From Actinomycetota bacterium (GTDB lineage: Bacteria; Actinomycetota; CADDZG01; WHSQ01), in the NCBI GenBank assembly GCA_009377815.1, contig WHTI01000010.1, forward strand, positions 1-49,620: a stretch of DNA of 49,620 nt, written 5' to 3'. The first letter of the stretch is position 1. Each line of letters opens with the position of its first letter. The translations under genes were made by a program, and so were the position numbers. This document shows positions 2,549 to 21,326 of this stretch, one piece after another. Under the pieces are notes generated by a model. The model saw only the letters and a program-made list of their open reading frames with translations. It was not told the origin of the DNA and ran no database searches.

Positions 2549-2590
2549 ATCCAGTGCGTCCCTCCAAGCCAGATCCGCGCGATCGGCGAG

Positions 2591-2621
2591 AGCCGGTCGT
2601 CTCGACGACCGGCAGAACCTA
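2591..2621 (+). repeat. 31-base palindromic repeat, copy 1
   Basis: Nine-base arms GCCGGTCGT and ACGACCGGC enclose the loop CTCG and are followed by AGAACCTA, which runs directly into the ATG at 2622. An inverted second copy lies at 41501-41531 and differs at two bases that pair with each other. No ribosome site precedes the flippase ATG, so the hairpin occupies the whole initiation region of that gene. Confidence 0.7.
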
Positions 2622-4061
2622 ATGGCGGTAGCGCTGTCGCGGCGGACGGTGGCGAAGAACGCCCTGAGCCAGCTCGGCACCTTCGCCCTGTCGGGTGGAT
2701 CCAAGGCGATCGCCGCGATCATGGTCGCGAGGACCTTGGGCCCGAAGGGCATGGGGACGTTCTCTCTGTCGTGGACCCTGGCTGGGACCCTCGCGTTCGT
2801 TGCGGTCCTGGGGCTCGACAACCGTCTGATCCGTGAACTCGCTCGAACGCGCGATCCCCGCGAGCTCGAGCGGAGTCTTCCGCTGGCGTGCCTGCTGGGG
2901 CTGATCTTCGGAGGACTGCTTACCGGGATCCCGGCCCTCACCGGCGTCCATTCCGATGCCGCGCAAGCACTCGCCGCCGCCGGCGGATTCGTTGCGGTCA
3001 GTGCGCCCATCCTCATCTTTCGAGCGACATTCCATGCGCGCGAGAAGATGGAGTACGAGACCGTCACCTGCGTTGTCGAGGGAGCGGTCGCACTGATCGC
3101 GGTAGCCGTTGCCCTGGGGGCCGGATTCGGCGTCGGCGGGGCGATGTTGGGGCTCACCGCGGGGCGGGTCGCGAACCTGATCCTCTGCCTCGTTCTGTAT
3201 CGGAGGCTCTGGGGGCCGGTGCGGATCGAGATCGCGGCGCGCCGATGGCTCGGGCTGATCCATGAGGGATGGCCCTTGGCGGTCTCCTACTCGCTTACCG
3301 CGACCTTTCTCAGGTTCGACATCCTCGTCCTTGCCATCTTCCACCCATCGGCCGAGGTCGGTATGTATGGCGCGGCATCGGTGATCCTCCTCACGGCTCC
3401 GCTCGTCGCCGTGTCCTTCAGTTCGTCCCTCTATCCGATCCTGGCTCAGGCCGAGGGACTCGACGACGAGCATCTGCAGAGCGTGTTCCAGAAGACCTCG
3501 AGGATCCTGATCGTCGCTGCGCTTCCACTGGCTACCGGGCTGACCGTTCTCGCCACGCCGATCGCCGAGATGCTCTTCGGCTCCGACTTCGGTCACACCG
3601 GCAGATACCTGGCGTTGCTCGCATGGATCCTGCCGTTCCGTTTCGTGAACCATCTCTTCGGCGTCGTCCTGGCAGCGACCCACCGAGCGCGGTCCCGTCG
3701 TCTCGCGGCGGTGGCGCTGGCCCTGATCGCCAACCTCGCACTCAATCTCATGTTGATCCCGACTTGGGGTGCCTACGGCGCGGTTGCCGCAACCATCGCC
3801 ACCGAACTCGTGATCGCCGGTCTCCTCCTGGCGGGGATCAGGCCTTTGAGGCCGATCCTGGCTCGACCCCTCGTCGAGGGGGCGCTCGTCGCCCTGGCGA
3901 TGACCGGCGTCGTGTTGGTGACTCCAGGAGGCATTTTCCCGCAGCTCGCCACCGGCGGTGCAAGCTTCGCCGGCGGTCTCTGGGTGCTATTCCTGTGGCT
4001 CCCATCCCGCGGTCTCGCGGCCTTTTCGGCGACCGAGCAGGAGTCCGCGGCAGCAGCTTGA
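2622..4061 (+). CDS. Wzx-type polysaccharide flippase, module A
   Basis: 479 aa with about 14 predicted membrane helices and almost no soluble part, the layout of the MOP/MVF superfamily of lipid-linked oligosaccharide flippases. The N-terminal stretch (GGSKAIAAIMVARTLGPKGMG, FSLSWTLAGT) is typical of this family. It would move undecaprenyl-linked repeat units across the plasma membrane. The protein is paralogous along its length to 13999-15477. It lies 73 bases after the lipoprotein gene, and the gap is largely filled by a palindromic repeat. The ATG has no Shine-Dalgarno sequence; a later start would lose the conserved amphipathic N-terminus. Confidence 0.88.
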   Translation: MAVALSRRTVAKNALSQLGTFALSGGSKAIAAIMVARTLGPKGMGTFSLSWTLAGTLAFVAVLGLDNRLIRELARTRDPRELERSLPLACLLGLIFGGLLTGIPALTGVHSDAAQALAAAGGFVAVSAPILIFRATFHAREKMEYETVTCVVEGAVALIAVAVALGAGFGVGGAMLGLTAGRVANLILCLVLYRRLWGPVRIEIAARRWLGLIHEGWPLAVSYSLTATFLRFDILVLAIFHPSAEVGMYGAASVILLTAPLVAVSFSSSLYPILAQAEGLDDEHLQSVFQKTSRILIVAALPLATGLTVLATPIAEMLFGSDFGHTGRYLALLAWILPFRFVNHLFGVVLAATHRARSRRLAAVALALIANLALNLMLIPTWGAYGAVAATIATELVIAGLLLAGIRPLRPILARPLVEGALVALAMTGVVLVTPGGIFPQLATGGASFAGGLWVLFLWLPSRGLAAFSATEQESAAAA

Positions 4062-4319
4062 TCGACCGACCCCGATCGAGCTCCAAGATGTCCCTTTTTC
4101 GCCTCTAACGCGGCCTTTTTCGGGGGCCGTAAGGCCTAGTAGCCTGGAAAAAAGTCGTAGATAATCCTGGCAGAGGTCTGGGAAAAGTACCCAGCATGGT
4201 CTACGGTAACGAACGTTCTTCCTGTTTCTGGAAGTAGCAGATCGAGCGGCTGAAACCGCTGCAGGAGGGCCGGCAATACGGCGGTGGGGATCGGGTCGGG
4301 TCGCTGAAAGAAGGGGCAC
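4062..4319 (+). promoter_or_regulatory. Gap with several hairpins before the SDR/GT2 gene
   Basis: No gene is seen here. Short hairpins are readable: CGGCC/GGCCG around 4109-4128, CTGGG/CCCAG near 4179-4195, AGCGG/CCGCT near 4246-4261 and GCCG/CGGC near 4270-4283. A TAGATAAT box near 4158-4165 and TACGGT near 4202-4207 are possible -10 elements. The region may hold a promoter and a structured leader for the downstream GTG-start gene. It matches no riboswitch class I could recognise. Confidence 0.35.
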
Positions 4320-6218
4320 GTGAGAGTACTTATCACTGGAGGGGCCGGGTTCATCGGGTCTCACCTGGCCGAAACCCTCCTCTGGCGTGGCGATGAGGTC
4401 GTCGTCCTCGACGACCTCTCGAGTGGAAGCCTCCGCAACCTCAAGTACGTCAAGAACCTCGCCGGGTTCACCTTCATCGAAGGCACCGTTCTGGATCAAG
4501 ATGTGGTCGAGGATGCGGTGGGGTCCACGGATGCGGTGGTTCACCTGGCTTCCGAGTTCACCGAGCCCGTCTCTCCCGGCCGTTTGCGGGTCAATGCCCA
4601 GGGAACCATCAACGTCCTGTCGGCTGCCGCCAACCGCGGGCGCCGCACGGTCATGGTGCCCTCTCCGGACTGGACCTCAGCGACCTCGGACGAGGACAAG
4701 GAGCAGCTCGCGGTCAAGGCCGCGAACGCCAGCGGGTTCCCCGTCAGCGTGGTGCGGCTCGCCAACGTCGTCGGACCTCGCGAGTCCGCCGACCACCAGA
4801 CGCTTCTCTACCGGTTCGTGAACACCGCACTGAGGGGCGAGGACGTCATCCTCGGTGGCACCGGTCACGAGACGGTTGCCTACTGCTACGTCGACGATGC
4901 GCTTCGCGGATTGATCAGCGTCTTGGAGCACGACTCCGCCGGCCACGTCTTCACGCTCGGCTCCGATGAGGTCATCACCACATTCGAGCTCGCGCACCTG
5001 GCGATCGAGGTAGCCGAGAGCGGATCGTCGCTACGGTTCGAGGACCTGGCGGACCCGGAGATCCCGGATCCGTCGGTTCCGGACATCTCCCACGCCCAGA
5101 GGATGCTCGGTTACGAGCCTCGCTGGTCGGTCGCCGACGCGGCCGGCGCGCTGATTGCCTACGAACTCGAGCAGCCGATCCCGCAACCGCTGGGGCGCAT
5201 GGAACGAAGGAACGTCATCTGGTTGGACCAGCCAGCAGCCGTCGCGGTTCCGGTGGTGGAGGAGGCACCCCTTCCTGAGGTTGGGGCCGAGGTCGTGGAG
5301 CTGCCGTTCCGACGGCGCGTCATGGACCCGGTGCCTGCCGGTGCCGCGCACCCAACCATCTCGGTGGTGGTTCCGGTTTACAACGAGCGTCATCTGATCG
5401 CCGAGTGCGTTCGGCGGATCCGGCGCCAGGAATGTGTCGGCGAGCTCATCGTCGTGGACGACGGATCGACCGACGGAACCCGCGCCGAGATCGAGAAGGT
5501 CAGCGACTTCATCGACCGCGTCGTCTATCTGCCTCGGAACCGAGGTAAAGGTGCCGCATTGCGGGAGGGTGTCCGCTTCGTCACCGGCGACATCATCGTC
5601 TTCCAGGACTCCGACCTCGAGTTGGACCCGGCCGACATCGCTCGTCTCGCCGCTCCGATCATCTCGGGCGAGGCCGACATCGTCACCGGAACGCGGATCC
5701 ACGAGGCCAACAAGAAGCTCGTCTCGTCATGGCAGTGGCTCGCCAACACGGCCGTCACTCGTCTGGCATCGGCGCTTTACCGCACCGAGGTCACCGACAT
5801 GGCCACCGCAGCTCGGGCGATGTCTAAGTCGACCTGGGATGCCCTTCACGTCGAGTCCGACCGTTTCGGGATCGAGGCGGAACTGCACGCCAAGTGCTCT
5901 CGTCTCGACGCCCGCATCATAGAGATCCCCATCATCTTCCGCCCCCGTACCAAGGCAGAGGGGAAGAAGATCCGCTGGACCGACGGGATCGTTGCCGGAC
6001 AGACCCTATTCCGTTACCGCATGTGGCGTCCCGTGGGAGCAGAAGTGGGCGTACTCAGTGCCCCGACTCCTCCCCCGATGAGCGCTTACAAGCCGGCGCA
6101 ACCGATCGTGTTGCAGCGTGACGCAGTCTCTCGTCCCGACCGTGCCGGTAACCCGGTCCGGTGGGAGCCCGCCAGGGTGGGACTCAGCGTCGCAGGTAAC
6201 GCCAGTATCGTGGGTTAA
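4320..6218 (+). CDS. Fusion: SDR without catalytic Tyr + GT2 glycosyltransferase, module A
   Basis: 632 aa. Residues 1-285 are an extended SDR (epimerase/dehydratase) fold with the NAD motif GGAGFIG at 7-13 and the downstream VVGPR and YVDDA segments. The usual SSS..YxxxK part is shortened: residues 100-160 contain no tyrosine, and Ser123 sits four residues before Lys127. A proline- and acid-rich linker leads to a GT2 domain at about 346-590 with SVVVPVYNE, VVDDGSTDGT and the metal-binding DSD at 430-432. The C-terminal tail has NPVRWEP. GT2 enzymes of this kind move sugars onto polyprenyl phosphate or a growing glycan. The SDR half may be an inactive sugar-nucleotide binding module or may use different chemistry (inference). 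The start is GTG at 4320, matching the usual MRVLITGGAG beginning. The 3' end overlaps the convergent ATP-grasp gene by 35 bases. A paralogue lies at 19152. Confidence 0.85.
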   Translation: MRVLITGGAGFIGSHLAETLLWRGDEVVVLDDLSSGSLRNLKYVKNLAGFTFIEGTVLDQDVVEDAVGSTDAVVHLASEFTEPVSPGRLRVNAQGTINVLSAAANRGRRTVMVPSPDWTSATSDEDKEQLAVKAANASGFPVSVVRLANVVGPRESADHQTLLYRFVNTALRGEDVILGGTGHETVAYCYVDDALRGLISVLEHDSAGHVFTLGSDEVITTFELAHLAIEVAESGSSLRFEDLADPEIPDPSVPDISHAQRMLGYEPRWSVADAAGALIAYELEQPIPQPLGRMERRNVIWLDQPAAVAVPVVEEAPLPEVGAEVVELPFRRRVMDPVPAGAAHPTISVVVPVYNERHLIAECVRRIRRQECVGELIVVDDGSTDGTRAEIEKVSDFIDRVVYLPRNRGKGAALREGVRFVTGDIIVFQDSDLELDPADIARLAAPIISGEADIVTGTRIHEANKKLVSSWQWLANTAVTRLASALYRTEVTDMATAARAMSKSTWDALHVESDRFGIEAELHAKCSRLDARIIEIPIIFRPRTKAEGKKIRWTDGIVAGQTLFRYRMWRPVGAEVGVLSAPTPPPMSAYKPAQPIVLQRDAVSRPDRAGNPVRWEPARVGLSVAGNASIVG

Positions 6219-8464: not shown

Positions 8465-10768
8465 ATGGATGCCCGTCCGATGACCAATAACGGCATCGCA
8501 TTCACCCTTGTCCTCATGTCTTTCATGCTGGGATTCGTTCTGATCCCTGCATTCATCCTCCCCAGGCCGAAGTCGGCCCGGAACCGGCTCGACGAGATCG
8601 TCATCAACTTCATCAGGTGGATGGCGGTCGTCTTGGTCGTGACCCATGTGCTGGCCGCCGTTCGTCTGTACGAGACGGTAACCCTCGTCGGTCTCGCCAT
8701 CGTCGCGCTCTACTTCACACGGTTCCGGAAGAACGGCTTCCACTTGGGGAGCGTTTTCTCGGTCATGCACCGGGCTGCCACGAGAGTGGTCGAGACGCAT
8801 GACGAGCGCAGCACCCGGTCGGTCGACCCGAACGCGACGTGGGACGACGACGACGCCAGCGAGCGGGGCTCACTGGCGATGACCGCCCCCAAGCTCTTCC
8901 GCCGCCGGTCACGTGTCGAGATCCGCTGGGACGACCCGGTCGATGAGGTCGAGACCCGGTGGCAGACGCCGCGGGCGATCGAAGCCGACAGGGTCCGCGT
9001 CGCAACGCCTCCCACGGCCAAGCGAGCCGCGCGGGCGCAGATCAGGCTGTCGTCTATCTCCGGGATCCTGCTGTTCACCGTCCCGGTGATCTTCGTACTG
9101 CTCCAGTCGTTCTGGCTCCGGCTTCAGATCGTTCTGCAGAACGACGCCATGGTCGTCCCCGACGCGTACGTCCACATGACGTGGGCCAAGGGACTCGCGG
9201 TCAACAACCTCTGGCCCGACGGCATCTACCCGATGGGCATGCCGTCGCTCATCACCTACGTTGGGAAGCTCTCGGTCCTCGTCGACACCGCTCAGGTGAC
9301 GAGGTTCCTGGGCCCGATCGTCGGCATGCTGATGGTCTTCGGGATCTTTTACGCCACCCTGCGCCTGACCCGTAACCCGGGCGCGGCGATCCTCGCCGGT
9401 GGAGCCTTCGGGTTGTTCGGCACCCGCCCCGAGTGGCACGAGCCGTTCAACCGTCAGCTCGGGCCCCTTCCTCAGGAGCTGGCGATCGCGATCACGTTCC
9501 TCGCTATCCCGTTCGCCGTGTGGGCCGTGTCTCAGAAGGACTACGGGCATCTGGCGACCCTGGGCTGCGCGGGCGTCGTGCTGGCTCTGACCCACCCGGT
9601 GCCGATCCCGGTCTTCGTCGTCTTCGTAACCGTCGCCGCCTTCTCCACCGCACTCGTGATGGGAGGTGGGCGTCATCGCTGGGCCGTGGGAGCGTCCGGG
9701 GTCCTCGTTGCCGGGGTACTCGCAGGCATGCTCTATATCCCGCTGGGATTGGTCAGCGGCCATCAGTTCTACGGGGCACTCACTAACTTCAACCCGGTTC
9801 AAACCGCGGCCGAGCAGACTGCTGAGGACGAGAACAGCAAACTCAACCCCGAGCTGGGGACCGCGCATGAGAGTCGCCAGAACGGCGTCAGCCGCCTTGC
9901 GATGCTCGGTGTCGTCCTGGGCTTCATCGGAGGCCTGTGGCTCGTCTTCGTCAAGAAGGCCCGTGCCTTCGGGGCTCAGATCATCTCCCTGGCGATCCTC
10001 GGTGTGGTGGTCCTGCTCTTCTACGACGCCAGCTGGCTCCCGCTCGACGACTTCTACGCCGGTCGTGTCGAGGGCTCGGCGAGCCCGTGGATCGCGATCC
10101 TGATCGGGCTTGGTATCGCCGGCATCGCGGCGTTCATTCCCAAGCGCATCGCGCGTCTCAGCGTGGCGATAACGCTCGTGCTCGGCTCCTTCGGGCTGTT
10201 CATGTTCGGACAGAAGTTCCCTCCGACCACCGCGTGGGTCTCCTACATCGAGTACTCGACGATGGTCACCCAGACGCAGCAGATCAAAGACGATTTCGAG
10301 CGCTTCACCTACACGATGGTCGGGATCCCCGAGCAGCGGCAGCGGCTCATGGGCTCGGCGTTCCTCGTCGACCTCTGGGTTTTCGCACGTGACGTGCGCC
10401 TGCACGATGCTCGCGATCCCTCGTATCAGCTGCCGATCCCGACCGAGCGGATCTTCCTCTCGGTCGAGAAGGTGCCGTTCCCGGGCTTCGAGGTCCCTGC
10501 ATCGAGCGCGACCGATGAGTACTACCGGGACAACGACAAGCGCGGCCGGATCATGGCCATCGTCGCTCGCTGGGCGGAGACGTACCGCCGCTACCACGAC
10601 GACATGACCATCTACTACGACGACGACAAGATCCGCATCTACGAGATTATGCGGACGCCGGACATCCACGCTTCCGACATCTCCAAGCAGTTCAAGGACT
10701 ACAAGTGGCACCGGGGCGAGCTCTTCAACGACGGCGCTGCCGTTCCCTTCCTCGGAGGTGTTGAGTAA
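8465..10768 (+). CDS. GT-C-like multi-pass membrane protein, module B
   Basis: 767 aa, the full-length counterpart of the partial gene at the window start. Two or three N-terminal helices precede a charged cytoplasmic stretch of about 100 residues (roughly 105-190), then about ten further helices (195-590) and a C-terminal domain rich in Tyr, Asp and Arg. The outer loop PDAYVHMTWAKG followed by GIYPMG resembles the acidic first loop of GT-C glycosyltransferases. The C-terminal domain shares GIPEQRQR and KRGRIMAIV with its paralogue. A role as polyprenyl-dependent glycosyltransferase or polymerase is inferred, not shown. The ATG at 8465 has no clear ribosome site; ATG 8480 is an alternative. 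The stop overlaps the next start (TAATG). Confidence 0.75.
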   Translation: MDARPMTNNGIAFTLVLMSFMLGFVLIPAFILPRPKSARNRLDEIVINFIRWMAVVLVVTHVLAAVRLYETVTLVGLAIVALYFTRFRKNGFHLGSVFSVMHRAATRVVETHDERSTRSVDPNATWDDDDASERGSLAMTAPKLFRRRSRVEIRWDDPVDEVETRWQTPRAIEADRVRVATPPTAKRAARAQIRLSSISGILLFTVPVIFVLLQSFWLRLQIVLQNDAMVVPDAYVHMTWAKGLAVNNLWPDGIYPMGMPSLITYVGKLSVLVDTAQVTRFLGPIVGMLMVFGIFYATLRLTRNPGAAILAGGAFGLFGTRPEWHEPFNRQLGPLPQELAIAITFLAIPFAVWAVSQKDYGHLATLGCAGVVLALTHPVPIPVFVVFVTVAAFSTALVMGGGRHRWAVGASGVLVAGVLAGMLYIPLGLVSGHQFYGALTNFNPVQTAAEQTAEDENSKLNPELGTAHESRQNGVSRLAMLGVVLGFIGGLWLVFVKKARAFGAQIISLAILGVVVLLFYDASWLPLDDFYAGRVEGSASPWIAILIGLGIAGIAAFIPKRIARLSVAITLVLGSFGLFMFGQKFPPTTAWVSYIEYSTMVTQTQQIKDDFERFTYTMVGIPEQRQRLMGSAFLVDLWVFARDVRLHDARDPSYQLPIPTERIFLSVEKVPFPGFEVPASSATDEYYRDNDKRGRIMAIVARWAETYRRYHDDMTIYYDDDKIRIYEIMRTPDIHASDISKQFKDYKWHRGELFNDGAAVPFLGGVE

Positions 10769-11745
10769 TGACCCCGCGATACGACTACCTGGCTCCGGTT
10801 CCGGACCTCTCGCTGTTGGACGAGTCGATCGACCCGAGCGGTGCCCGTCCGAAGTTCTCGATCGTGATCCCGGCCTTCAACGAGGCCGACGTGATCGGTG
10901 ACGTCGTCGCCAACGTCCGCGAAACCCTCGGCAACTCGGCCGAGATCATCGTGGTCGATGACGGCTCCTCCGATCTCACCAGGATGGAGGCGGAACGCGC
11001 CGGTGCAAAGGTCGTCGCCCTGCCCGTGAACGGCGGGAACGGTGCCGCGATCAAGACCGGTATCCGGAACGCCACCGGCGAATTCATCTGCTTCATGGAC
11101 GGCGACGGTCAGCACACTTCGGAGGACATGCTGAAGTTGCTCGAGCACGCCGGCCCCTTCGACATGGTCGTCGGAGCTCGCAACGCGAAGGGTCAGGCCT
11201 CGTTCCTCCGGAAGGTCGCCAACCGCTTCTGGAATCGTCTGGCGTCGTGGATGACGGGCCGCAAGGTCGAAGACCTCACGTCCGGCTTCCGGGTCGTCCG
11301 CAGGACGGTCGCCGAGGAGTTCCTCCCGCTCCTACCCAACGGCTTCAGCTACCCGACCACGATCACCCTGTCTTCGATGAGGGCCGGCTACGCGGTCAAG
11401 TACGTACCGGTCGATGTTCGCAAGCGGGTCGGGAAGTCGAAGATCCGCCTCTTCCGTGACGGCGCCAAGTTCTTCATCATCATGTTCAAGATCACGACCC
11501 TGTTCTCGCCGATCAAGATCTTCCTCCCCCTGGCCGGGCTTCCCGCCCTGGGCGCGGTTGCCGCCGCTGGGGCGTCGATCGTCGGGATGGCGAACGGCTG
11601 GGTCATCGCCACGATCCTGTTCACCAGCGCTCTGTCGCTTACCGGCTTGGGGCTCGTCTCCGAGCAGATCTGTGCCATGCGCTTCGAGCGTCTGACCGTG
11701 ATGGCCGAGTCTCGCCGGCTGAGGATGAGCGAGGTCGCACGATGA
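10768..11745 (+). CDS. GT2 family glycosyltransferase with two C-terminal helices
   Basis: 325 aa. Residues about 29-230 form a GT-A fold of family 2 (FSIVIPAFNEAD, IIVVDDGSSD, NGGNGAAIKTGI, and DGDGQH as the metal-binding DxD). Two hydrophobic segments near 240-265 and 270-300 anchor it in the membrane, as in polyprenyl-phosphate mannosyl/glucosyltransferases of the DPM1/GtrB kind. It probably loads a sugar onto polyprenyl phosphate, which could feed the GT-C-like protein just upstream. GGAGG lies 9 bases before the ATG, which itself overlaps the previous stop. Module A lacks this gene in the visible part. Confidence 0.85.
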   Translation: MTPRYDYLAPVPDLSLLDESIDPSGARPKFSIVIPAFNEADVIGDVVANVRETLGNSAEIIVVDDGSSDLTRMEAERAGAKVVALPVNGGNGAAIKTGIRNATGEFICFMDGDGQHTSEDMLKLLEHAGPFDMVVGARNAKGQASFLRKVANRFWNRLASWMTGRKVEDLTSGFRVVRRTVAEEFLPLLPNGFSYPTTITLSSMRAGYAVKYVPVDVRKRVGKSKIRLFRDGAKFFIIMFKITTLFSPIKIFLPLAGLPALGAVAAAGASIVGMANGWVIATILFTSALSLTGLGLVSEQICAMRFERLTVMAESRRLRMSEVAR

Positions 11746-12665
11746 AGCGCTCTCTCCTTCTCCTTTCATTGCTCCTGGTCGTCGGCGGAACCGCGTGTCA
11801 GCCGACCGGTGAGCGCCGCCCGGTGAGCCTCCGCGAGGAGATCACGCCGGCGGGTGAGCTCGATGGCGCCGTGGCGTTCGTCCGCGAGACGGGCGTGGGC
11901 ACATCCGCTCTCTACGTGAAGGATCTCGCCACCAACAAAGACACGGAGATCCCGGTCGACGGTGCCTACGTCACCTCCCCGGCATGGTCTCCGGACGGTT
12001 CCAAGATCGCCTACTCGGCTACCGACGAGAAGGACTGGACACACATCTGGGTGGCGAACGCCGACGGCTCGAACGCCGAGAAGCTGACGTCCGGTCTCAG
12101 TGCCAACGACTATCCGGCGTTCACCACCGATGGGAAGAGCATCATCTTCGCCACGACTGCAGGAGAGGGCGGTAGATGGCACCTCGCATCGATCCCCACG
12201 TCCGGCGGCGACGTCGAGAAGCTCACTTCCGGTGACCGTGACGATGTCTACCCGTCGGTCTCGCCCGACGGCAAGTCGATCGCATTCGCACGCAAGGTCG
12301 AGGGCGAGTCCTACCACCTGGCCACTCTCGATCTTGCGAGTGGCAAGTCGGAGATGCTGACCTCGGGCGACCACGAAGACATGTTCCCGAGCTTCAACCC
12401 GGATGGGAAGACACTGGTCTTCGCCTCGACCCGGCAGGACGACATCTGGCAGCTGTTCACCCTCGACCTCGCCTCCGGGGAGGCCGAGTCGCTCATCGGT
12501 AGCGACTCCGTCGACCGCTTCCCGGTCTATTCGCCCGACGGGCGCTACGTGCTCCTTGCAACCGACCACCTCGCCATCTACTCGGCCGACGGGAAGCCAC
12601 TTCCCAACGGCGATCTGAGATGGCGCCTGACAGAGAAGCCGGCCCTAGCACCGGCGTGGAGGTAA
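11742..12665 (+). CDS. TolB-like beta-propeller lipoprotein, module B
   Basis: 307 aa. The signal peptide ends in a lipobox with GGTAC, followed by a mature part that starts QPTGERRPVSLREE. Blades carry SPAWSPDGSKIAYSA, SPDGKSIAFAR, NPDGKTLVFAS and SPDGRYVLLAT, giving a six-bladed PD40 propeller. It is the paralogue of 1616-2548, with matching first and last segments. The ATG overlaps the TGA of the GT2 gene by four bases (ATGA). Its place next to the GT-C and GT2 genes in both modules points to a fixed partnership at the outer membrane face (inference). Confidence 0.85.
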   Translation: MKRSLLLLSLLLVVGGTACQPTGERRPVSLREEITPAGELDGAVAFVRETGVGTSALYVKDLATNKDTEIPVDGAYVTSPAWSPDGSKIAYSATDEKDWTHIWVANADGSNAEKLTSGLSANDYPAFTTDGKSIIFATTAGEGGRWHLASIPTSGGDVEKLTSGDRDDVYPSVSPDGKSIAFARKVEGESYHLATLDLASGKSEMLTSGDHEDMFPSFNPDGKTLVFASTRQDDIWQLFTLDLASGEAESLIGSDSVDRFPVYSPDGRYVLLATDHLAIYSADGKPLPNGDLRWRLTEKPALAPAWR

Positions 12666-12667
12666 CC

Positions 12668-14002
12668 ATGTACGTCGAGCCTCTTCTGGACAACACGGGG
12701 ATCGTCACTCCGTCCATCAGCGCGATGGAGCGGATCCGCACGCGGACCGCGCGCGTCGGCGTTGTCGGACTCGGCTACGTCGGCCTGCCGCTGGCGGTTG
12801 CCCTGGGAGACGCCGGCTTCGATGTCGTCGGAGCCGACCTTGACCAGAGCAAGCTCGATGCACTCAAGGAAGGTCGCAGCCCACTCGACTGCATCGCGGA
12901 CTCCAGCATCGGCGGACTGATCGATGCCGGCAGGTTCGAGGTCACGACCGACGCGGCCCATCTCAACTCGCCCGACATCATTCTGATCTGCGTCCCCACC
13001 CCCCTCAACCAGGGTGAGCCCGACCAGCGCTTCGTGATGGAGGCTGCTGAATCGCTGATCCCGCAGATCCGTCCCGGCATGATCGTCGTGCTCGAGAGCA
13101 CGGTCATCCCCGATACCACCGAGAGGATGCTCGTCCCGGTCCTCGAGGCTTCCGGATACAAGGCAGAGGTCGATTTCTTCGTTGGGTTCTCACCCGAGCG
13201 GGTGGATCCTTCGTCCGGCCTGGACGTCGTCGACGTTCCCAAGCTGGTGTCCGGCATCGGCCCCCAGTCGGCGGCCCTCGTCGAGGAGCTGTACCGGAAC
13301 ATCGTTAGAACGGTTGTGCCGGCGTCTTCGCCGCGCGTCGCCGAGTTCACGAAGCTGCTTGAGAACACCTTCCGCGACGTCAACATCGCACTCGTCAACG
13401 AACTCGCCCAGGTGGCCCGCGACATGGGCGTCGACATCTGGGAAGCGATCGATCTCGCGGCGACCAAGCCCTACGGCTACACGCCCTTCTACCCGGGACC
13501 CGGGGTCGGCGGACACTGCATCCCGGTCGACCCGGTCTACCTCGCCTGGCGCGCCGAGGTTGCCGGGAAGCCGCTGTCGATGCTGCAGGACGCTCGACGG
13601 GTCAACGACTCGATGCCCGGCTTCGTGGCCGACAGGGTCGCGGAGCTGCTCGACGGCGACCTCGCCGGCAAGAAGATCCTGGTGATCGGTGCAGCCTTCA
13701 AGAAGGACATCGAGGATGCTCGCAACTCGGCCTCGGTCGACGTCATGGATCGCTTCGTGGAGCGCGGTGCGGAGGTTCTCTACCATGACCCCTACTGCCC
13801 ATCGGTGAAGACCGCCACCCGCACCCTGGTGTCGGTGCCGGACCTGATTCCCGAACTCGAGCGTGCCGACTGCGTCGTCATCTGCACGGACCACTCCAGC
13901 TATGACTGGGAGGAGGTCCTCGGCTCCTCGAGGCTTATCTTCGACACCCGCAACGTTCTTGCCTCGTTCGTAAACGACGAGGCGAAGGTGCATCGGCTGT
14001 GA
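12668..14002 (+). CDS. Nucleotide-sugar dehydrogenase (UDP-HexNAc/UDP-Glc 6-dehydrogenase family)
   Basis: 444 aa. The N-terminal Rossmann motif GVVGLGYVGLPLA binds NAD, the central segment FTKLLENTFRDVNIALVNELA is typical of the WbpA/WecC branch, and the catalytic Cys lies in GPGVGGHCIPVDP. The C-terminal UDP-binding domain follows (GAAFKKDIEDARNS). It would oxidise C6 of a UDP-sugar twice to give a UDP-uronic acid. The WbpA-like motifs favour UDP-GlcNAc over UDP-Glc, but this is not certain. The start at 12668 is chosen because GGAGG lies seven bases upstream; an ATG at 12620 would overlap the lipoprotein gene and add 16 unrelated residues. The stop overlaps the next GTG (GTGA). Confidence 0.88.
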   Translation: MYVEPLLDNTGIVTPSISAMERIRTRTARVGVVGLGYVGLPLAVALGDAGFDVVGADLDQSKLDALKEGRSPLDCIADSSIGGLIDAGRFEVTTDAAHLNSPDIILICVPTPLNQGEPDQRFVMEAAESLIPQIRPGMIVVLESTVIPDTTERMLVPVLEASGYKAEVDFFVGFSPERVDPSSGLDVVDVPKLVSGIGPQSAALVEELYRNIVRTVVPASSPRVAEFTKLLENTFRDVNIALVNELAQVARDMGVDIWEAIDLAATKPYGYTPFYPGPGVGGHCIPVDPVYLAWRAEVAGKPLSMLQDARRVNDSMPGFVADRVAELLDGDLAGKKILVIGAAFKKDIEDARNSASVDVMDRFVERGAEVLYHDPYCPSVKTATRTLVSVPDLIPELERADCVVICTDHSSYDWEEVLGSSRLIFDTRNVLASFVNDEAKVHRL

Positions 14003-15477
14003 GCACTCCGGTGGGGACCGTGCTCGACTCGCAGCCAGCGACGTTGTCACTGTCCAAGCGCCGGGTGGTTAAGAACTCCGTCGCGCAGATGCTTTCTCAG
14101 ATCCTGGCGGGCGGCTCCAAGGCGCTTGCTGCGGTCATGGTCGCCCGAGCTCTCGGCCCCGAGGGGATGGGCGTCTTCTCGCTGTCCTGGACCCTTGCCG
14201 GCACCGTGAGCTTCCTGGCGGTCTTCGGACTCGACTACCTGATGATCCGCGAGATGGCCCGGCACCGCGATCGGAGAACGCTCGAGAACTCGTTCACCCT
14301 CGCCTGCCTGCTCGCCGGTGCGGTCGCCGTGATGCTCGTCGCCGCCCCGCTTCTCGTGGGCGCGCATACGCCGGTGATCCAGGCCCTGATCGGCGCCGCG
14401 GCATACATCGCTCTCAGCGCCCCGGTGCTCGTCCTGAGAGCGTCCTTCCACGCAGCCGAGAAGATGGAGTACGAATCCGCGGCGACCACGATCGAAGGTC
14501 TCTTCGCGGTCGCCGGCGTCGCCGTTGCCCTGGTCCTCGGATGGGGGGTCGCCGGCGCCATGGGCGGCCTTGCCCTCGGACGCCTCGCCGCTCTGGTGGC
14601 CAGCCTGCGGTTGTACCGCAAGCTCTGGGGAGCGTTCCATCCTCGCTGGGATCCCACGGACTGGAAGCCGATGCTGAAGGCCTCGATCCCCATGGCCGCC
14701 TCGTACGCCTTCACTGCGGTCTATATGCGCTTCGATGTCGTGCTGCTGGCGGGGCTGAGGCCCGCCTCCGAGGTGGGGCTCTATGGAGCCGTCTCGGTGA
14801 TCATCCTGACGGTTCCGATCTTCGCTTCGTCATTCGGTGGCTCGCTGTATCCGGTTCTATCCCGGGCCGGGTCCGCCGATCACCCCGAGGTGCAGTCGGT
14901 CTTCGCTTCGTCCGTGAGGCTCTTATTCATGGCGTCCATCCCGATGGCCACCGGACTGTTCCTCCTTGCGGGGCCGATCCTGAAGCTGACCTACGGAAGC
15001 GACTTCACGTCCGCCGCCCACGCCCTGATGGTTCTCTCCCTGGTGCTGCCGATGCGCTTCGTGAACAACCTCGCGGGCCACGTGTTGACCGCGGTCGACC
15101 GCCAGGGCAAGAGGACCACCGCCGTGATCGTTGCGGCGACCGCGAACCTCGGTCTGAACCTCGTATTCATCCCCTTGTGGGGATTCATGGGGGCGGCGTA
15201 CGCAACCCTGATCACCGAAGCCGTTCTCACCGCCTTGATGATCCCGGCCCTCAAGCCGCTGCGCTACCGCTCGCTCGGCGTGCTCGAAGGCGCGGCGATC
15301 GCACTCGTTATGGGCGCGGTCGTGGTGTCGGTACCGGGCGGCGTGATCGGCCAGCTGGGAGCCGGCGCGGCCGTCTTCCTCCTCGGAGCCACGGCTCTTT
15401 TCCTTCGAGGTCGGGTAACCCCTAGGGCTAAAGGTGTCCCCGTGGCGAAGCCGACGTTAGAAGGGGGGCTCGCGTGA
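13999..15477 (+). CDS. Wzx-type polysaccharide flippase, module B
   Basis: 492 aa, about 14 helices, MOP/MVF superfamily. Paralogue of 2622-4061: both share GGSKA(I/L)AA(I/V)MVAR, FSLSWTLAGT and an FxAxEKMEYE segment near one third of the length. It would flip lipid-linked repeat units. The GTG start overlaps the dehydrogenase stop by four bases. The C-terminus ends with a short basic tail. Two flippases in one locus suggest two repeat units, or one unit handled by a duplicated set. Confidence 0.88.
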   Translation: MSTPVGTVLDSQPATLSLSKRRVVKNSVAQMLSQILAGGSKALAAVMVARALGPEGMGVFSLSWTLAGTVSFLAVFGLDYLMIREMARHRDRRTLENSFTLACLLAGAVAVMLVAAPLLVGAHTPVIQALIGAAAYIALSAPVLVLRASFHAAEKMEYESAATTIEGLFAVAGVAVALVLGWGVAGAMGGLALGRLAALVASLRLYRKLWGAFHPRWDPTDWKPMLKASIPMAASYAFTAVYMRFDVVLLAGLRPASEVGLYGAVSVIILTVPIFASSFGGSLYPVLSRAGSADHPEVQSVFASSVRLLFMASIPMATGLFLLAGPILKLTYGSDFTSAAHALMVLSLVLPMRFVNNLAGHVLTAVDRQGKRTTAVIVAATANLGLNLVFIPLWGFMGAAYATLITEAVLTALMIPALKPLRYRSLGVLEGAAIALVMGAVVVSVPGGVIGQLGAGAAVFLLGATALFLRGRVTPRAKGVPVAKPTLEGGLA

Positions 15478-15536
15478 GTTCCACGCGGCCGTGGCAACGG
15501 ATCGATGCCCCCGTGGGAGGTAGGGGGGCGTCATGA
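15474..15536 (+). CDS. 20-codon bridging ORF between flippase and HprK-like gene
   Basis: GTG at 15474 overlaps the flippase TGA (GTGA), and its own TGA overlaps the ATG of the next gene (ATGA). AAGGGGGG lies five bases before the GTG. The peptide has 20 residues, beginning MSSTRPWQ and ending in a Gly-rich tail. It resembles no known family. It may serve only to carry ribosomes across the 55-base gap, so that the downstream gene stays coupled; a functional peptide is not excluded. Confidence 0.4.
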   Translation: MSSTRPWQRIDAPVGGRGAS

Positions 15537-16627
15537 GGTTCTCCATCGCAGGTCGACTCAACGTGCGCTACGAGGGGATCGATTGCCCCGCGGGCCGGTG
15601 GGCGGCGCGCATCGCCGGAGGCATGGAGCCGCCGGTGGAAGGCCCCGATCACATCACGATCGAGTTCCGACCCGGTGTGAAGCCCCAAGGCCGCTCGTTG
15701 CCTCCGATCAATCTCGGACCGACCATGAACGGCATCTGGGTCGCCGACCATCTCGACCGGGCCGCATGGATCCCATTCCACAACCTCTTCAAGGAATCGA
15801 TCGTCGTCGACTCCAAGATGGACTCGCGCTTCTTCACTAATTGGGTCTTCTACCCGGTGATGCGAGCGGGTCTGTGGAGCGAAGGCGTCTCTCTGTACCG
15901 GGGAGCTTCGGCGTCCGTCGACGGTCACCGCGTCGCGATCTCGGCATGGACAGCGACCGGAAAGTCCCGGATCCTCTTCGAGTTGCTGAGGCGCGGTCAC
16001 GAGCACATCGGAGACGACTGGTTCTCCCTAACGAATGATGGCGTCATCGCTCCCGTCGGTTCGCAGGTCGACTTCCGCGACGAACAACGCAGGTACCTAT
16101 CTCCGAGTCGGTGGCCGGGACGGCGTTCGATCATCCGTCCCCTGATCGTCAAAGCCGCTCGCTGGGGGGCCAGGACGACCCGTCGGCGCGCGAACCTGTC
16201 GACCGGCTTCGAGAAGCTGGCCGACGCGACGTGGAAGGCCGGATGGCAGAAGTCCGATCTGAACTCGATGTTCCCGACCACTTCGATCGCCGAGCCGGGT
16301 CCCCTCGAGATCCTGGTCGTGCTGGCCAGCCCGGGGGTCCAGATACCGGCCCCCGATGACATCCCCGAGCTCATGGCCGCCTGCGTGGCGGGCGAGTACG
16401 GGTTCGCCGAGATGGAGGCCGCGTACCGTTTCTCCAAGCCGGGGAAGCTCGATGCGCCGCTGTTCCCGAGGTTCGAAGCCAACCGCGATTTCGTCGCTCG
16501 AGCCCTCGAGGGGACCCGCATCATCACCGTCCCGTTCCCCGGCTCGATCGACGACGTCGAGGCGGTAGCCAACGTCATTGAGACGATGGTGGCCGGACTC
16601 CAGCGTGGTGAGGTGGAGGTCGCGTGA
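15533..16627 (+). CDS. HPr-kinase-like P-loop protein
   Basis: 364 aa. The centre holds a P-loop-like stretch AWTATGKSRILFELLRRGH followed by IGDDWFSL, which matches the HprK/PEP carboxykinase-like pattern GxxGxGKS...DD. The first glycines are replaced by Ala and Thr, while GKS and the DD pair remain. The N-terminal third has no recognised fold. HprK-like proteins occur in several exopolysaccharide and exosortase loci; their substrates are largely unknown. The gene is coupled to a short ORF upstream and overlaps the GT4 gene downstream (GTGA). Nucleotide binding is likely; phosphorylation of a protein or sugar is inferred. Confidence 0.65.
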   Translation: MRFSIAGRLNVRYEGIDCPAGRWAARIAGGMEPPVEGPDHITIEFRPGVKPQGRSLPPINLGPTMNGIWVADHLDRAAWIPFHNLFKESIVVDSKMDSRFFTNWVFYPVMRAGLWSEGVSLYRGASASVDGHRVAISAWTATGKSRILFELLRRGHEHIGDDWFSLTNDGVIAPVGSQVDFRDEQRRYLSPSRWPGRRSIIRPLIVKAARWGARTTRRRANLSTGFEKLADATWKAGWQKSDLNSMFPTTSIAEPGPLEILVVLASPGVQIPAPDDIPELMAACVAGEYGFAEMEAAYRFSKPGKLDAPLFPRFEANRDFVARALEGTRIITVPFPGSIDDVEAVANVIETMVAGLQRGEVEVA

Positions 16628-17772
16628 GACTGCTATTCGTAACCTCCAGCTTCGCGCGCTTCGACGGTGATCCGACCGCGGCCGCGGGCCTCGGTGTGTA
16701 CCAGTTGGTTCGAGAGCTCGGCAAACACGTCTCGGGCACCGTGATCACCCCGGCCCAAGAGGGTGCTCCCGAAACGGAGCGTCTCGGCGGGATGGTCGTT
16801 CAGCGGATCGCTCCGGAACGCCCGCCCGGCGCCCTGCACCAGTCGAACCACCCGAGCCACCTGCTGCGCGCCTACCGCGTCGATCGCGCGATGAAGCGGA
16901 CCGCTCGCTTCCTTGCGCCCCTTCACGACGTTGCTCACGGCCACTGGGCGTTCCCGGGAGGAGCCGCGGTCACGCGCCTCGATATCCCGAGCGCGGTCGT
17001 GTGCCTCGGCACCGACGTCCACCGCTACTCCTACATGCCGGTGTTCAAGTCGATGTTCAAGAACGTTGTGACCCGCGCTTCGGCGAACATCGCCATGGAT
17101 GCGGGTGCCCAAGCTCGGATCGAAGAGGTCAGTGGCCGCGAGACGTACTGCATCCCCAATGCGGTACCCCTCGAGAGCATCCCGCTGGCGGAACCCGCCT
17201 CCGGCAAGCAGATCGCGTGGGTCGGCCGGATGTCGCCCGAGAAGGGCCCCGACGTCATGGTCAGAGCCTTCGCCCTCGCCTACGCGCGGGATCCCGAACT
17301 GCGACTCACGATGATGGGTGACGGTGCCCTGATGGGTTCGATCCGAGCCCTGGCGCGGTCCCTCGGTGTCGCGGATGCCGTCGAGTTCCGGGGTGCGGTG
17401 CATAACCAGCAGGTCCTCGAGAACTATGCCGATGCCGCGGTCGTCGTGGTGTCGTCACGTAGCGAGGGTCTCCCGGCGTCGTCGCTCGAGGCCCTGGCCA
17501 TGGGCCGCCCGGTGGTCGCCACCGACGTCGGAGGGCTGAGGAAGCTCCTGAGCGGCGGAGGGGGCATCACGGTCCCCTCGGACGATCCCCCGGCTCTGTC
17601 GGACGCGATCGTTCAAGCCGTGGGCCGATCGTGGGAGCCGCGCTTCCTGCGGACTCAGGTCGAGCACGCGAGCGTCGCCGCCGTGACGCGCACCTATCTT
17701 GATATCTACGAAGAGATCATCGCCAAATACCCCCGAAAGCTCTTCGAGCGGGCCGGCTCGGCCCCTGTGTGA
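16624..17772 (+). CDS. GT4 family glycosyltransferase
   Basis: 382 aa, GT-B fold. The N-terminal half begins LLFVTSSFARFDGDPTAAAG and contains a donor/acceptor cleft region with AHGHWAFPGG. The C-terminal half has the family 4 signatures WVGRMSPEKGPDVMVRAF, MMGDGALM and the Ex7E-like segment SRSEGLPASSLEALAMGRPVVATDVGG. It would transfer a sugar from a nucleotide donor to the lipid-linked chain at the cytoplasmic face. It is the last gene of the coupled operon that starts at 8465, and it meets the HD-GYP gene tail to tail with a five-base gap. Confidence 0.9.
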   Translation: MRLLFVTSSFARFDGDPTAAAGLGVYQLVRELGKHVSGTVITPAQEGAPETERLGGMVVQRIAPERPPGALHQSNHPSHLLRAYRVDRAMKRTARFLAPLHDVAHGHWAFPGGAAVTRLDIPSAVVCLGTDVHRYSYMPVFKSMFKNVVTRASANIAMDAGAQARIEEVSGRETYCIPNAVPLESIPLAEPASGKQIAWVGRMSPEKGPDVMVRAFALAYARDPELRLTMMGDGALMGSIRALARSLGVADAVEFRGAVHNQQVLENYADAAVVVVSSRSEGLPASSLEALAMGRPVVATDVGGLRKLLSGGGGITVPSDDPPALSDAIVQAVGRSWEPRFLRTQVEHASVAAVTRTYLDIYEEIIAKYPRKLFERAGSAPV

Positions 17773-17777
17773 GCGCC

Positions 17778-19007
17778 CTAACTAGTGGTGGGGTGCTTAC
17801 GAGCTGCGAAGAACGCCTGGATGACATCGGGATCGAACTGCGTCCCGGCTCCCTGAAGCAGGGTCGCCATCGCATCCGTCACCGGCATGCCTTCACGCCA
17901 CGGGCGGGGAGAGATCAGAGCATCGAAGACCTCGGCCACGGCGATGATGCGTGCCGCCAGGGGGGCCTTGTCGCCGGGCAGGTTGTCCGGGTACCCGGAG
18001 CCGTCCCAGCGCTCGTGGTGCCCTCGGACGGCCATGGCGACCTCTTCGGGCAGCCCGGCACCGAGAACGATGGCGGCGCCCAGCTCGGGGTGCCTACGAA
18101 CCGCATCCCGCTCGACGTCGTCCAGCTTGATCTTGGACAGCGCCTGCGACCCACAGAAGCCCGAGGCCACGTCGTGGAGCCTTGCGGCCACCTCGATCGT
18201 GCGGCGGGTGCGGCGGTCACAGTTCATCTGATGGGAGATCGACGAGGCAACCCGCATGACCCGGACCGAGTGGCCGAAGGTGTGCGAGGCGCGGGCGTCG
18301 ACGGCGTCGGCCAAGGTCTGGAGGGTCCGATACCTCACCAGGCGGTCGTCGCCGGGGTTCGAGAGCTGCCGGATGCCGTCCTCGAGGATGGCAACGGCGG
18401 TAGGAGAGCTCCTGCGGGCCGAGATGACGACCAGTTCGCCCTTCGGCTCGAGCTTGACCACGTCGGCATCGAGCTCGATCTTGATGGCGCTGAGGAGCAG
18501 TTCCTTGAGGTCTTCGATGGGGCCGGCGATGAGCTCCGCCGCCGCTTCCTCAGAGCGCTGGCGCTCGCTCTCTCCGGTGCGGCGCTCCTCGACGGAGGCC
18601 TGGATCAGCTTCTCGGCTCCGTCCTGAGCAGCCCTTTGGACCGCACGGGTCCGTACGGGACCTATACGGGGGCTGAGCCACGGACCCAGCCGGGCGAGGC
18701 CGGCGCGGCCCTGGTAGCCGAGGGGAACGATCAGGTAGTGGCCGTCGCCGCCCCAGAGCCAGCCCATCTCGGGCTCGACCCAGTGCATGCGGAGTTCGGC
18801 CGGCTGTCCTTCGGTGGACTTCCGATCCGCGGCCCAGAGGACGAAACCGCCGTCGGGGTGGGGGATGTAGACGGCCGAGGTGTCGGTCTTGGCGGCGCGA
18901 CGGAGCATCGAGGCAGCCGAACGGGCGGCAGATCCCATGGGGGACGCCACCATCGGGGTGTCCACGCCTGCGGCGGACATCGTGTCAGTTCCTGGAGCTC
19001 CAGTCAC
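17778..19007 (-). CDS. HD-GYP domain protein (probable c-di-GMP phosphodiesterase)
   Basis: 409 aa. The N-terminal 230 residues look like a divergent sensory (GAF-like) region with a short helical stretch near 135-165. The C-terminal HD-GYP domain (about 235-400) has HSVRVMRVASSI, LHDVASGF, RRHPELGA and the signature HHERWDGSGYP. The usual HDIGK is HDVAS here, and VADVFDAL reads VAEVFDAL, so metal binding may be altered. HD-GYP proteins hydrolyse c-di-GMP, which often controls polysaccharide output, and the position inside the locus supports that. The GTG at 19007 is chosen because GGGAGG lies five bases upstream; the frame runs much further 5' but over the divergent gene. Start ATG 18980 is an alternative. 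Confidence 0.82.
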   Translation of the reverse strand: MTGAPGTDTMSAAGVDTPMVASPMGSAARSAASMLRRAAKTDTSAVYIPHPDGGFVLWAADRKSTEGQPAELRMHWVEPEMGWLWGGDGHYLIVPLGYQGRAGLARLGPWLSPRIGPVRTRAVQRAAQDGAEKLIQASVEERRTGESERQRSEEAAAELIAGPIEDLKELLLSAIKIELDADVVKLEPKGELVVISARRSSPTAVAILEDGIRQLSNPGDDRLVRYRTLQTLADAVDARASHTFGHSVRVMRVASSISHQMNCDRRTRRTIEVAARLHDVASGFCGSQALSKIKLDDVERDAVRRHPELGAAIVLGAGLPEEVAMAVRGHHERWDGSGYPDNLPGDKAPLAARIIAVAEVFDALISPRPWREGMPVTDAMATLLQGAGTQFDPDVIQAFFAARKHPTTS

Positions 19008-19151
19008 GGTTACCTCCCGGTCGCCGTCTGCGGGACCCTGGTCGTCTTTGAGGTTCACGTTGAAGTTATCGGCACTATGAGCCGAAGGTTTAGGTATCAG
19101 GGCGACGTTCGTCCGTTTCCGACGCCCCTCAGGGAGGGATAGAGCACCCCC
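19008..19151. promoter_or_regulatory. Divergent gap between HD-GYP and SDR/GT2 genes
   Basis: 144 bases between two divergent starts. On the plus strand TTTAGGTAT near 19089-19097 is a possible -10 box, GGGCG/CGCCC can form a stem near 19101-19128, and GGGAGG lies about 14 bases before the ATG at 19152. On the minus strand the ribosome site of the HD-GYP gene is at 19013-19018. Confidence 0.35.
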
Positions 19152-21326
19152 ATGCGGATATTGGTAACCGGAGGCGCCGGCTTCATCGGTTCTCACCTCA
19201 GTGAGGCCCTCCTTTGGCGTGGGGACGAAGTTGTGGTCCTGGACGACCTCTCTACGGGGGCCCAGGAGAAGATCCGCATCCTGGACGGCCGTGCCGGCTT
19301 CCGTTTCGTAACCGGTTCGGTGACCGATGCGGGGATCGTCGACGGACTGGTCAAAGGGGTCGATTCCGTGGTCCATCTGGCCGCGGTCCCCGGTCGCTCG
19401 GCCGCCGCCCGGCTCCAGGCCAACACCGAGGGCACCGCCAACATCCTCGAGGCGGCCGCTCGCTTCAATCGTCCAACCATCATCGCGACGACCTCGAACC
19501 ACTCCTCGGCCGAGAAGGATGCGGCCGATGACGCGATGGCTCACCGCCTCGCGGTCGAACGTGGGATCCCGGTAACCGTTGCTCGATTCCGCAATGTCGT
19601 GGGCCCGAGGCAGTCGATCGGATACGCCAAGGTCCTCCCGCGCTTCGTCCGACAGTCTCTGCGCGGCGAAGACATCACCGTGCATGGGGACGGAAGCCAG
19701 ATCCGGACCTTCTGCTACGTCGATGACGTGATCGAGGGCATGACCGCTCTCGTCGACGCGGATAACACCGCCGGAGGCGTCTACACGTTCGGTTCCGTCG
19801 AAGAGATCGCGATCGTCGAGCTCGCCAACCGTGCCCTTGAGGTCACCGAGTCGAGTTCCAACGTCGTCTTCGTTCCTCCCGAGGACATCGCCGCTTACCA
19901 CCAGGGTGGCCATGCCAACGTGCCGGATATCAGCCGCGCGATCAACGATCTCGGATACGAGCCGCGCTGGGCCTTGAACGATTCGCTGGCTGCGGTCGCC
20001 GCTGCGTTCCTCGGCCGCCCGATCGTCAAGCCCACCGACCTCGACGCGGTCCAGGAACTGCTGCTGTTGCAGGAGATGACTGACCTCACCTCCGAAGATG
20101 ATGCGGCCCAGACCCCACCTCCGGCCAAGGCCGCACCACCGGCCGCGACCGTTCAGGCACCACCGGCCGAAGCTGCCCCGGTTACCCCGGTCGTTCCTAC
20201 TCCGGAAGAGAGCGAGATCCCGGTATTCGATCTCGGTCCCGTGCCGGTGAGGTTCGAGGCCGAGGTCGAGGTCAAACGACCGATCGCCGATGACTCGTTC
20301 CTCATGGGTGGAACCGGACCGGCGATGCCACTCAAGCACTTCCCGCCACCGCCTCCTCCCTCTCCACGCCCGAAGAAGGGACGCCCGTTCGTCTCGGTCA
20401 TCGTGCCGGTCTACAACGAGGCACCGTCGATCGCGGAATGCATCCGCAGGTTGCGATCGCTCGACGCGATCGACGAACTCATCGTGGTCAACGACGGATC
20501 GGACGACGGAACCGGGAACGAGCTCGGTCGAGTCACCGACATGATCGATGTGCTGATCGACCTTCCGAAGAACAGCGGGAAGGGCGCCGCGGTCAAGGCG
20601 GGCATCGCTCGTTCCCGCGGCGAGATCCTCGTCGTCCACGACTCCGACCTCGAACTCGATCCCGCCGACATCCCCCGCTTGATCCGTCCGATCGTCGATG
20701 GTGAGGCCGACGTCGTAACCGGGAACCGGATGCACGATGGCAACCGCGACCTCGTTCCGCCGCGTCAGTGGGTGGTCAACCGTCTCCTCACCGAGTTCGG
20801 TAACACGGTCTACGGGATGTTCATCCACGACATCGCGACCGGCTCACGTGCGATCCAACGAGATCTTTTCAACGCGATGGATCCCGTCTCCGATCGCTTC
20901 GAGTTCGACTCCGAGCTCCAGGCCAAAGCCGCCCGCATCAAGGCCCGCGTGGTCGAGATCCCCATCACTTTCCGCCCCCGGCAGAGGAAGCAGGGGAAGA
21001 AGGTCCGCTGGACCGACGGCGTCCACGCGGCTCGAGCGCTGCTCAAGTACCGGCTGTGGAAGCCCTCGGTTCCGTGGGACAGCCCGACCGCGATCGACAT
21101 GCCCGCAGCCGTTGCCGGAATCAAGAGGCACGGTCCCAAGGTCGTGTTCCCCGACGACATGTCTCCGCCGCCCCTCAACCCGCCCAGCCGAGCCGCTCCG
21201 GGCGAGGCCCCGGCGCCACCCTTCGTCGTCCCGCTCTACCTCCGCGGGGGCAAGATCGTGCGCCCCGAGAGCCAGCCGGTCCGCTGGGACCCCGACCGCA
21301 CCGCCGGCCGCGAAACCCGCTCCTAG
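19152..21326 (+). CDS. Fusion: SDR without catalytic Tyr + GT2 glycosyltransferase, module B
   Basis: 724 aa, paralogue of 4320-6218. The SDR part (1-295) has GGAGFIG at 7-13, FGSV and YVDDV segments, and again no tyrosine in residues 100-155: the position four before Lys122 is Ser118, and the loop that normally carries YxxxK is about 20-25 residues shorter. The linker (about 300-410) is rich in Pro, Ala and Glu and ends in a run of six or more prolines, so the two domains are probably mobile. The GT2 domain (412-660) has SVIVPVYNEA, VVNDGSDDGT and DSD at 497-499. The tail carries QPVRWDP, matching NPVRWEP in the sister protein. The likely role is transfer of a sugar within the polysaccharide pathway; the SDR function is unknown. 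Confidence 0.85.
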   Translation: MRILVTGGAGFIGSHLSEALLWRGDEVVVLDDLSTGAQEKIRILDGRAGFRFVTGSVTDAGIVDGLVKGVDSVVHLAAVPGRSAAARLQANTEGTANILEAAARFNRPTIIATTSNHSSAEKDAADDAMAHRLAVERGIPVTVARFRNVVGPRQSIGYAKVLPRFVRQSLRGEDITVHGDGSQIRTFCYVDDVIEGMTALVDADNTAGGVYTFGSVEEIAIVELANRALEVTESSSNVVFVPPEDIAAYHQGGHANVPDISRAINDLGYEPRWALNDSLAAVAAAFLGRPIVKPTDLDAVQELLLLQEMTDLTSEDDAAQTPPPAKAAPPAATVQAPPAEAAPVTPVVPTPEESEIPVFDLGPVPVRFEAEVEVKRPIADDSFLMGGTGPAMPLKHFPPPPPPSPRPKKGRPFVSVIVPVYNEAPSIAECIRRLRSLDAIDELIVVNDGSDDGTGNELGRVTDMIDVLIDLPKNSGKGAAVKAGIARSRGEILVVHDSDLELDPADIPRLIRPIVDGEADVVTGNRMHDGNRDLVPPRQWVVNRLLTEFGNTVYGMFIHDIATGSRAIQRDLFNAMDPVSDRFEFDSELQAKAARIKARVVEIPITFRPRQRKQGKKVRWTDGVHAARALLKYRLWKPSVPWDSPTAIDMPAAVAGIKRHGPKVVFPDDMSPPPLNPPSRAAPGEAPAPPFVVPLYLRGGKIVRPESQPVRWDPDRTAGRETRS

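Follow-up and report, generated by a model that had tools for sequence, protein, structure and literature searches.

An SDR domain without its catalytic Tyr and Lys, fused to a GT2 glycosyltransferase, is kept in two paralogues at a probable surface-glycan locus of an Actinomycetota bacterium

The locus analyzed here raises the question of why a glycosyltransferase should carry in front of it an SDR domain that has lost its active site, and whether this loss is a kept state or a step in decay. The window, i.e., the whole stretch of DNA that was analyzed, comprises 49,620 nucleotides of contig WHTI01000010.1 of an Actinomycetota bacterium. The SDR/GT2 fusion described in a first-pass annotation was confirmed as an ORF at 19152..21326 on the + strand, and Pfam found both domains, Epimerase at residues 3–115 plus a second stretch and Glycos_transf_2 at residues 415–573. 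The 724-aa product, hereafter fusion protein A (all its coordinates are on the + strand), is laid out as a pseudo-SDR, a Pro-rich linker, a GT2 domain, and a tail. The SDR half (residues 1–290; 19152..20021) has the extended-SDR fold, and its membership was supported by the Rossmann glycine motif TGGxGFIGSH, which is identical in all fusions (PF01370, 2.8e-34). The NAD-binding glycine motif LVTGGAGFIGSHL (residues 4–16; 19161..19199) is identical or conservatively replaced in 5/5 fusions. The nearest solved structures are chains of human UDP-xylose synthase (UXS), and the PDB sequence match was 4lk3 (8e-33). The linker (residues 291–408; 20022..20375) is mostly predicted to be disordered, and the GT2 half (residues 409–640; 20376..21071) follows it. 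Judged from its sequence, A is a genuine fusion, in which a Pro-rich linker joins an extended SDR to an apparently intact GT2 of the polyprenyl-phosphate type. No published account of this SDR-GT2 fusion was found in our literature searches.

A paralogue of 632 aa, fusion protein B, is encoded at 4320..6218 (+). Its linker is the shorter one, as had been annotated, with 55 aa and 16% Pro vs 118 aa and 22% Pro in A. Both proteins have an orthologue in a second species of the genus, and these four proteins make up the Tyr-less set. A scan of genome contigs with A yielded one near relative (n = 1), whose fusion protein was identical to that of the second species and added no further species, so that the Tyr-less form is known from one genus with two species. 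A fifth fusion (P0004), from a genome of the same family (G008), has an intact active site (ASTSEVYG...IRWSYSTGK) and sits at the syntenic position of A; in the 40-kb stretch that was read, it neighbors the HD-domain gene and has the same glycan genes upstream. By sequence, the SDR half is closest to a standalone NAD-dependent epimerase/dehydratase family found in many genomes of the phylum, with an RW(S/A)Y(S/A)xxK site and ~50% identity to the intact fusion. Unlike A and B, the members examined are unfused and keep the YxxxK. An intact UXS-like SDR with the site YDEAK is also encoded elsewhere in the genome that carries A and B (L004).

No more SDR-GT2 fusions were found in the phylum sample (397 genomes) or in 24 genomes of the class. 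Outside the phylum, plasmids, viral contigs, and, in one pattern-based scan, genome contigs were searched; in plasmids, the matches were to the SDR alone and none spanned 80% of the fusion, and viral contigs gave matches to one half only, which were used for alignment depth. In two other families of the phylum, an unfused SDR gene is followed by a GT2 gene (L054:1420-3348 and L055:866-2659), plausibly a precursor-like layout, though the SDRs are of different subfamilies.

The first-pass annotation had pointed to a lack of Tyr in residues 100–155, which is true of both A and B. The loss of the Tyr is real, but its cause is a missing block of residues and not a simple point substitution. At the junction of residues 116/117 (19497..19502), A lacks 25 residues, including the YGK..R segment, compared with the intact fusion and the standalone SDR family. 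When aligned with the intact fusion, the gap is identical in 4/4 Tyr-less proteins from the two species; it lies between the end of the TTSN/PSPD strand and the former YxxxK helix, and the missing block reaches approximately from the ASTSE motif up to the Tyr of the active site. A second gap of ~5 residues, in the sugar loop, is also common to the four proteins. When residues are aligned without gaps starting at the conserved RG(I/L/F)P anchor, the former YxxxK of A falls at 19506..19520, and its Tyr and Lys slots are taken by Ser119 and Asp123, respectively. The earlier assignment of Ser118 to the YxxxK position was thus off by one, and the implied Lys122, which is replaced by Arg in the sister species, is not the residue of the Lys slot. 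In B, the corresponding residues are Ser120 and Asp124. The Tyr slot is occupied by Ser in all four Tyr-less proteins, and the Lys slot by Asp, Asp, and Ser in the three other than A. A catalytic YxxxK is absent from both A and B, and the loss goes beyond the Tyr noted earlier, since the Lys and the sugar-binding loop are also gone. All standalone-family SDRs examined and all viral-contig SDRs used as alignment rows retain both Tyr and Lys. The absence of Tyr from residues 100–155 as such holds for A and B, but a sister orthologue has a Tyr there (MAYKLAIERG), outside the active site. An assembly artefact was ruled out, as the same in-frame excision is present in two paralogues and two MAG species.

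The finding of the same loss in two diverged paralogues could in principle reflect two events. Phylogenies of both halves, which the earlier annotation had proposed as a check, agreed with each other. The A and B forms clustered together (100/99 in the SDR tree of 40 rows and 98/96 in the GT2 tree of 30 rows), and within this Tyr-less cluster, A paired with A and B with B across the species in both trees. The intact fusion was the nearest fused relative (93/84 in the SDR tree and 100/99 in the GT2 tree). In AU tests, grouping the intact fusion with A or with B was rejected for the SDR half (p = 0.002 and 0.003, respectively) and, more weakly, for the GT2 half (p = 0.038 and 0.021). One shared loss is supported by both half trees, in which A joins B before the intact fusion does. 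Two independent Tyr losses would fit the divergence of A and B, whose SDR halves are only ~45% identical; however, the gaps are equal in length and position, and the trees of both halves unite A and B with the intact fusion outside, which makes repeated loss extremely improbable. The simplest history suggested by the sequences is a single fusion, a single excision, and then a single block duplication, with the loss shared and not repeated. The annotated sharing of the loss therefore stands, but as one inherited event marked by an identical 25-residue gap, so that the paralogues are independent witnesses to the retention of the Tyr-less state and not to its loss.

The duplicated block is located at 117..6218 (+) and comprises genes for a membrane protein, a PD40 propeller, a Wzx flippase, and fusion B, in the same order as their paralogues within 8465-21326, where other genes are interspersed. 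This duplication of a surface-glycan gene set is present in both species of the genus. The G008 genome, with its single fusion, also has two copies of the multi-TM gene (L252:7112-9337 and L252:11207-13390), which are ~2 kb apart and 50% identical. As the membrane gene occurs twice there too, its history may differ from that of the fusion.

Selection on the SDR parts was estimated by pairwise comparison between the two species (NG86). The dN/dS of the SDR half was 0.10 in A and 0.17 in B over 286–290 codons, compared with 0.12 and 0.077 for the GT2 half, 0.28 and 0.35 for the linker, and 0.21 and 0.33 for the tail, the tail values being about two to four times those of the domains; all are single pairwise estimates at dS 0.5–1.2, without confidence intervals. 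On the basis of these low ratios, the SDR parts are constrained, in B less so than its GT2. The constraint on the SDR of B may be weaker, since it evolves faster than its GT2 (0.17 vs 0.077) and has lost the Arg of the UDP-phosphate position. Reading frames were open in all fusion copies of both species, so that neither the relaxed selection nor the frequent disruption that would have spoken against retention was observed. The purifying selection looked for was thus found, and the view that the Tyr-less state is old and kept, not decaying, was borne out: the loss predates the A/B duplication, the SDR is under purifying selection, and the frames are intact in two species. "Old" here means older than the A/B duplication, not widespread, as the state belongs to one genus.

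The SDR half could instead be a passenger, a decaying remnant that persists only by being in frame with a useful GT2. The long SDR branches of the Tyr-less forms (e.g., 0.75 for the B stem in the SDR tree), the SDR dN/dS of B at twice that of its GT2, and the drift of many once-conserved substrate-site residues are in line with such decay. We consider it unlikely, as the SDR ratios lie below those of the linker and tail of the same proteins, the fold is confidently predicted, and the residues of the NAD half are nearly all retained despite a paralogue split that has left ~45% identity.

This retention was assessed on 102 columns that are ≥90% conserved in 24 intact standalone SDRs. In the NAD half (residues 4–78 in the numbering of the intact fusion), A keeps 25/26 and B 24/26 of the conserved columns, whereas in the catalytic and sugar-loop region (residues 79–157), A keeps 6/28 and B 5/28. 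The contrast between these two regions (Fisher p ~1e-8) is descriptive only, because the regions were delimited, and their columns counted by hand, after inspection of the conserved columns. In the C-terminal part, 32/48 columns are kept in A and 23/48 in B. The residues of the NAD motif also support the fold, and their retention is no proof of NAD binding. AlphaFold2 models, built with input alignments of window sequences and related loci only, showed a confident SDR fold for both A and B (mostly pLDDT >90, with 65–80 at the junction and the sugar loop). The GT2 was also modeled with confidence, the linker and tail came out mostly disordered, and the packing of the domains was poorly defined (pTM 0.50–0.52). 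The best PDB structure matches of the A model were human UXS1 chains (TMt ~0.9, rmsd 2.0). With the catalytic residues lost and the predicted fold and selection kept, A and B both qualify as predicted SDR-type pseudoenzymes.

In sequence, predicted fold, and NAD motif, the SDR of A resembles UDP-xylose synthase/UDP-glucuronate decarboxylase and UDP-glucuronate 4-epimerase; it differs from these enzymes in lacking the Tyr, Lys, Glu, and sugar loops and in being fused to a GT2. Among the features that define a UXS (T-S-E, YxxxK, the RRxPD arginines, and the NDP-sugar loop), the triad Thr/Ser is kept (and Ser115 in A), and the others are changed or deleted. The SDR of A is therefore UXS-like in fold but is not a UXS. 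Continued catalysis by the SDR half through non-canonical residues, such as Ser119, is very unlikely. Such an enzyme could draw on the triad Thr114, which is kept in A, and on the Ser found in the Tyr slot of every Tyr-less protein, and in a related enzyme, traces of activity persist after a Y-to-F exchange (PMC7984243). However, A and B no longer have the Tyr, the Lys, the Glu of T-S-E, or the substrate loops, and without its Tyr even the cited enzyme works at about a thousandth of its normal activity (PMC7984243). A further reading, in which the pseudo-SDR binds a UDP-sugar (and NAD) without turnover and passes it or signals to the GT2, is a minor possibility. It would account for the Arg of G-x-G-x-Q-x-R kept in A (Arg185) and for the retained columns of the C-terminal lobe; however, A has neither the sugar loop nor the RR-x-PD arginines, and the equivalent of Arg185 is gone in B, so that this would not be a shared function unless B has diverged.

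The GT2 half of A (PF00535, 1.3e-29) keeps the DxD (DSDLELDP) and the other invariant GT2 residues, and the DxD and DPMS-type motifs are conserved across the five fusions and unfused relatives. It resembles the GT2 of polyprenyl-phosphate sugar synthases (AglJ/PpgS/ArnC/DPM1-like), matching the AglJ, PpgS, and ArnC models with the invariant motifs kept, but all matches are below the NCBIfam equivalog cut-offs. Also unlike these synthases, the fusion protein has no membrane segment predicted by hydropathy and carries an SDR in front. Upstream of A, a locus at 8465..17772 (+) encodes a multi-TM protein, a GT2, a PD40 protein, a nucleotide-sugar dehydrogenase, a Wzx flippase, an unknown ORF, and a GT4. 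The gene of an HD-domain (HD_5) protein (17778..19106, −) is divergent from A, has the same place in the second species (G001) and in G008, and might share regulation with fusion A. A polysaccharide deacetylase and flippases are also present in the neighborhood. The fusions likely act in surface-glycan assembly, because their neighbors include a nucleotide-sugar dehydrogenase, flippases, a GT4, a GT2, a polysaccharide deacetylase, and the HD-domain protein. The multi-TM proteins at 8465-10768 and 117-1616 had no Pfam or NCBIfam match, and for the former there was no PDB match at E up to 1 either. For the multi-TM neighbor P0002, no function emerged from sequence searches. These multi-TM proteins, whose genes were duplicated with the fusions, are candidates for a glycosyltransferase or polymerase of unknown family.

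The tails of both fusions had been noted to end in a PVRW(E/D)P motif that might be a docking site. A motif search located PVRWDP in A (residues 709–714; 21276..21293) and PVRWEP in B (residues 612–617; 6153..6170, +), in both cases near the C-terminus, and the DNA pattern occurs at these two sites only in the 3.6-Mb genome, with 0 in a reversed control. The motif does not extend to all relatives: PVRWDP is kept in the orthologue of A, the orthologue of B has PAPWEP, and the intact fusion has none. With the motif in 3/4 Tyr-less proteins, the PAPWEP variant, and the relatively high tail dN/dS (0.21–0.33), a docking role has weak support. The linker stretch DDSFLMGGTGPAMPLK of A (20271-20360) is 88% identical in the sister species and had no credible match elsewhere among the 25 genomes searched (23 others). 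This stretch is a possible short linear motif, and as a docking candidate it would rank no lower than the tail motif.

We infer, with somewhat better than even confidence, that an NAD-binding pseudo-SDR scaffolds or regulates a surface-glycan GT2. The SDR would have entered the fusion as a normal UXS/epimerase-like enzyme; a single excision would then have taken the active-site segment (~25 residues) along with some of the sugar loop, with loss of the Tyr and Lys, and the four-gene block would later have been duplicated to give A and B. The pseudo-SDR presumably still folds and retains the NAD pocket but should be incapable of canonical hydride chemistry. It would most likely be an NAD-stabilized scaffold or oligomerization module, possibly a nucleotide-responsive regulator, and would hold or tune the apparently competent soluble GT2 within the surface-glycan assembly locus. 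A precedent for NAD retention without the Tyr is UDP-GlcA 4-epimerase Y149F, which still carried NAD+ after purification and is ~1200-fold less active (PMC7984243). MAT2B and NDUFA9 illustrate how non-catalytic relatives of SDRs may serve as regulators or as structural subunits. MAT2B, the regulatory subunit of methionine adenosyltransferase II, is a non-catalytic relative of reductase/epimerase-type SDRs and resembles the proposed role in that it binds NADP+ and regulates or stabilizes another enzyme (PMC3506619, PMC11445541). It differs in being a separate, mammalian subunit with NADP+ bound and the YxxxK residues present (Y159 and K163). The retained NAD-site residues make MAT2B-like regulation conceivable for A and B by analogy only. 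NDUFA9, an accessory subunit of complex I, is an SDR family member with bound NADPH and most likely a structural role (PMC8762328), and it differs from A and B in having an unrelated partner to which it is not fused. A more specific version, in which the dead SDR reads NAD+/NADH and switches the attached GT2, with the two paralogues tuned differently, is doubtful; if true, it would tie surface-glycan output to the redox state.

The locus thus records an ordered and reconstructable birth of a pseudoenzyme, from fusion through a single active-site excision to duplication, and the same locus of a sister genus still has an intact fused relative. Because of this relative, the purpose of the dead domain lends itself to a direct test, in which both forms share one GT2 scaffold and differ in whether the SDR is intact. 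Should the SDR control the GT2, the fusions would represent a covalent bacterial counterpart of MAT2B-type regulation in glycan assembly.
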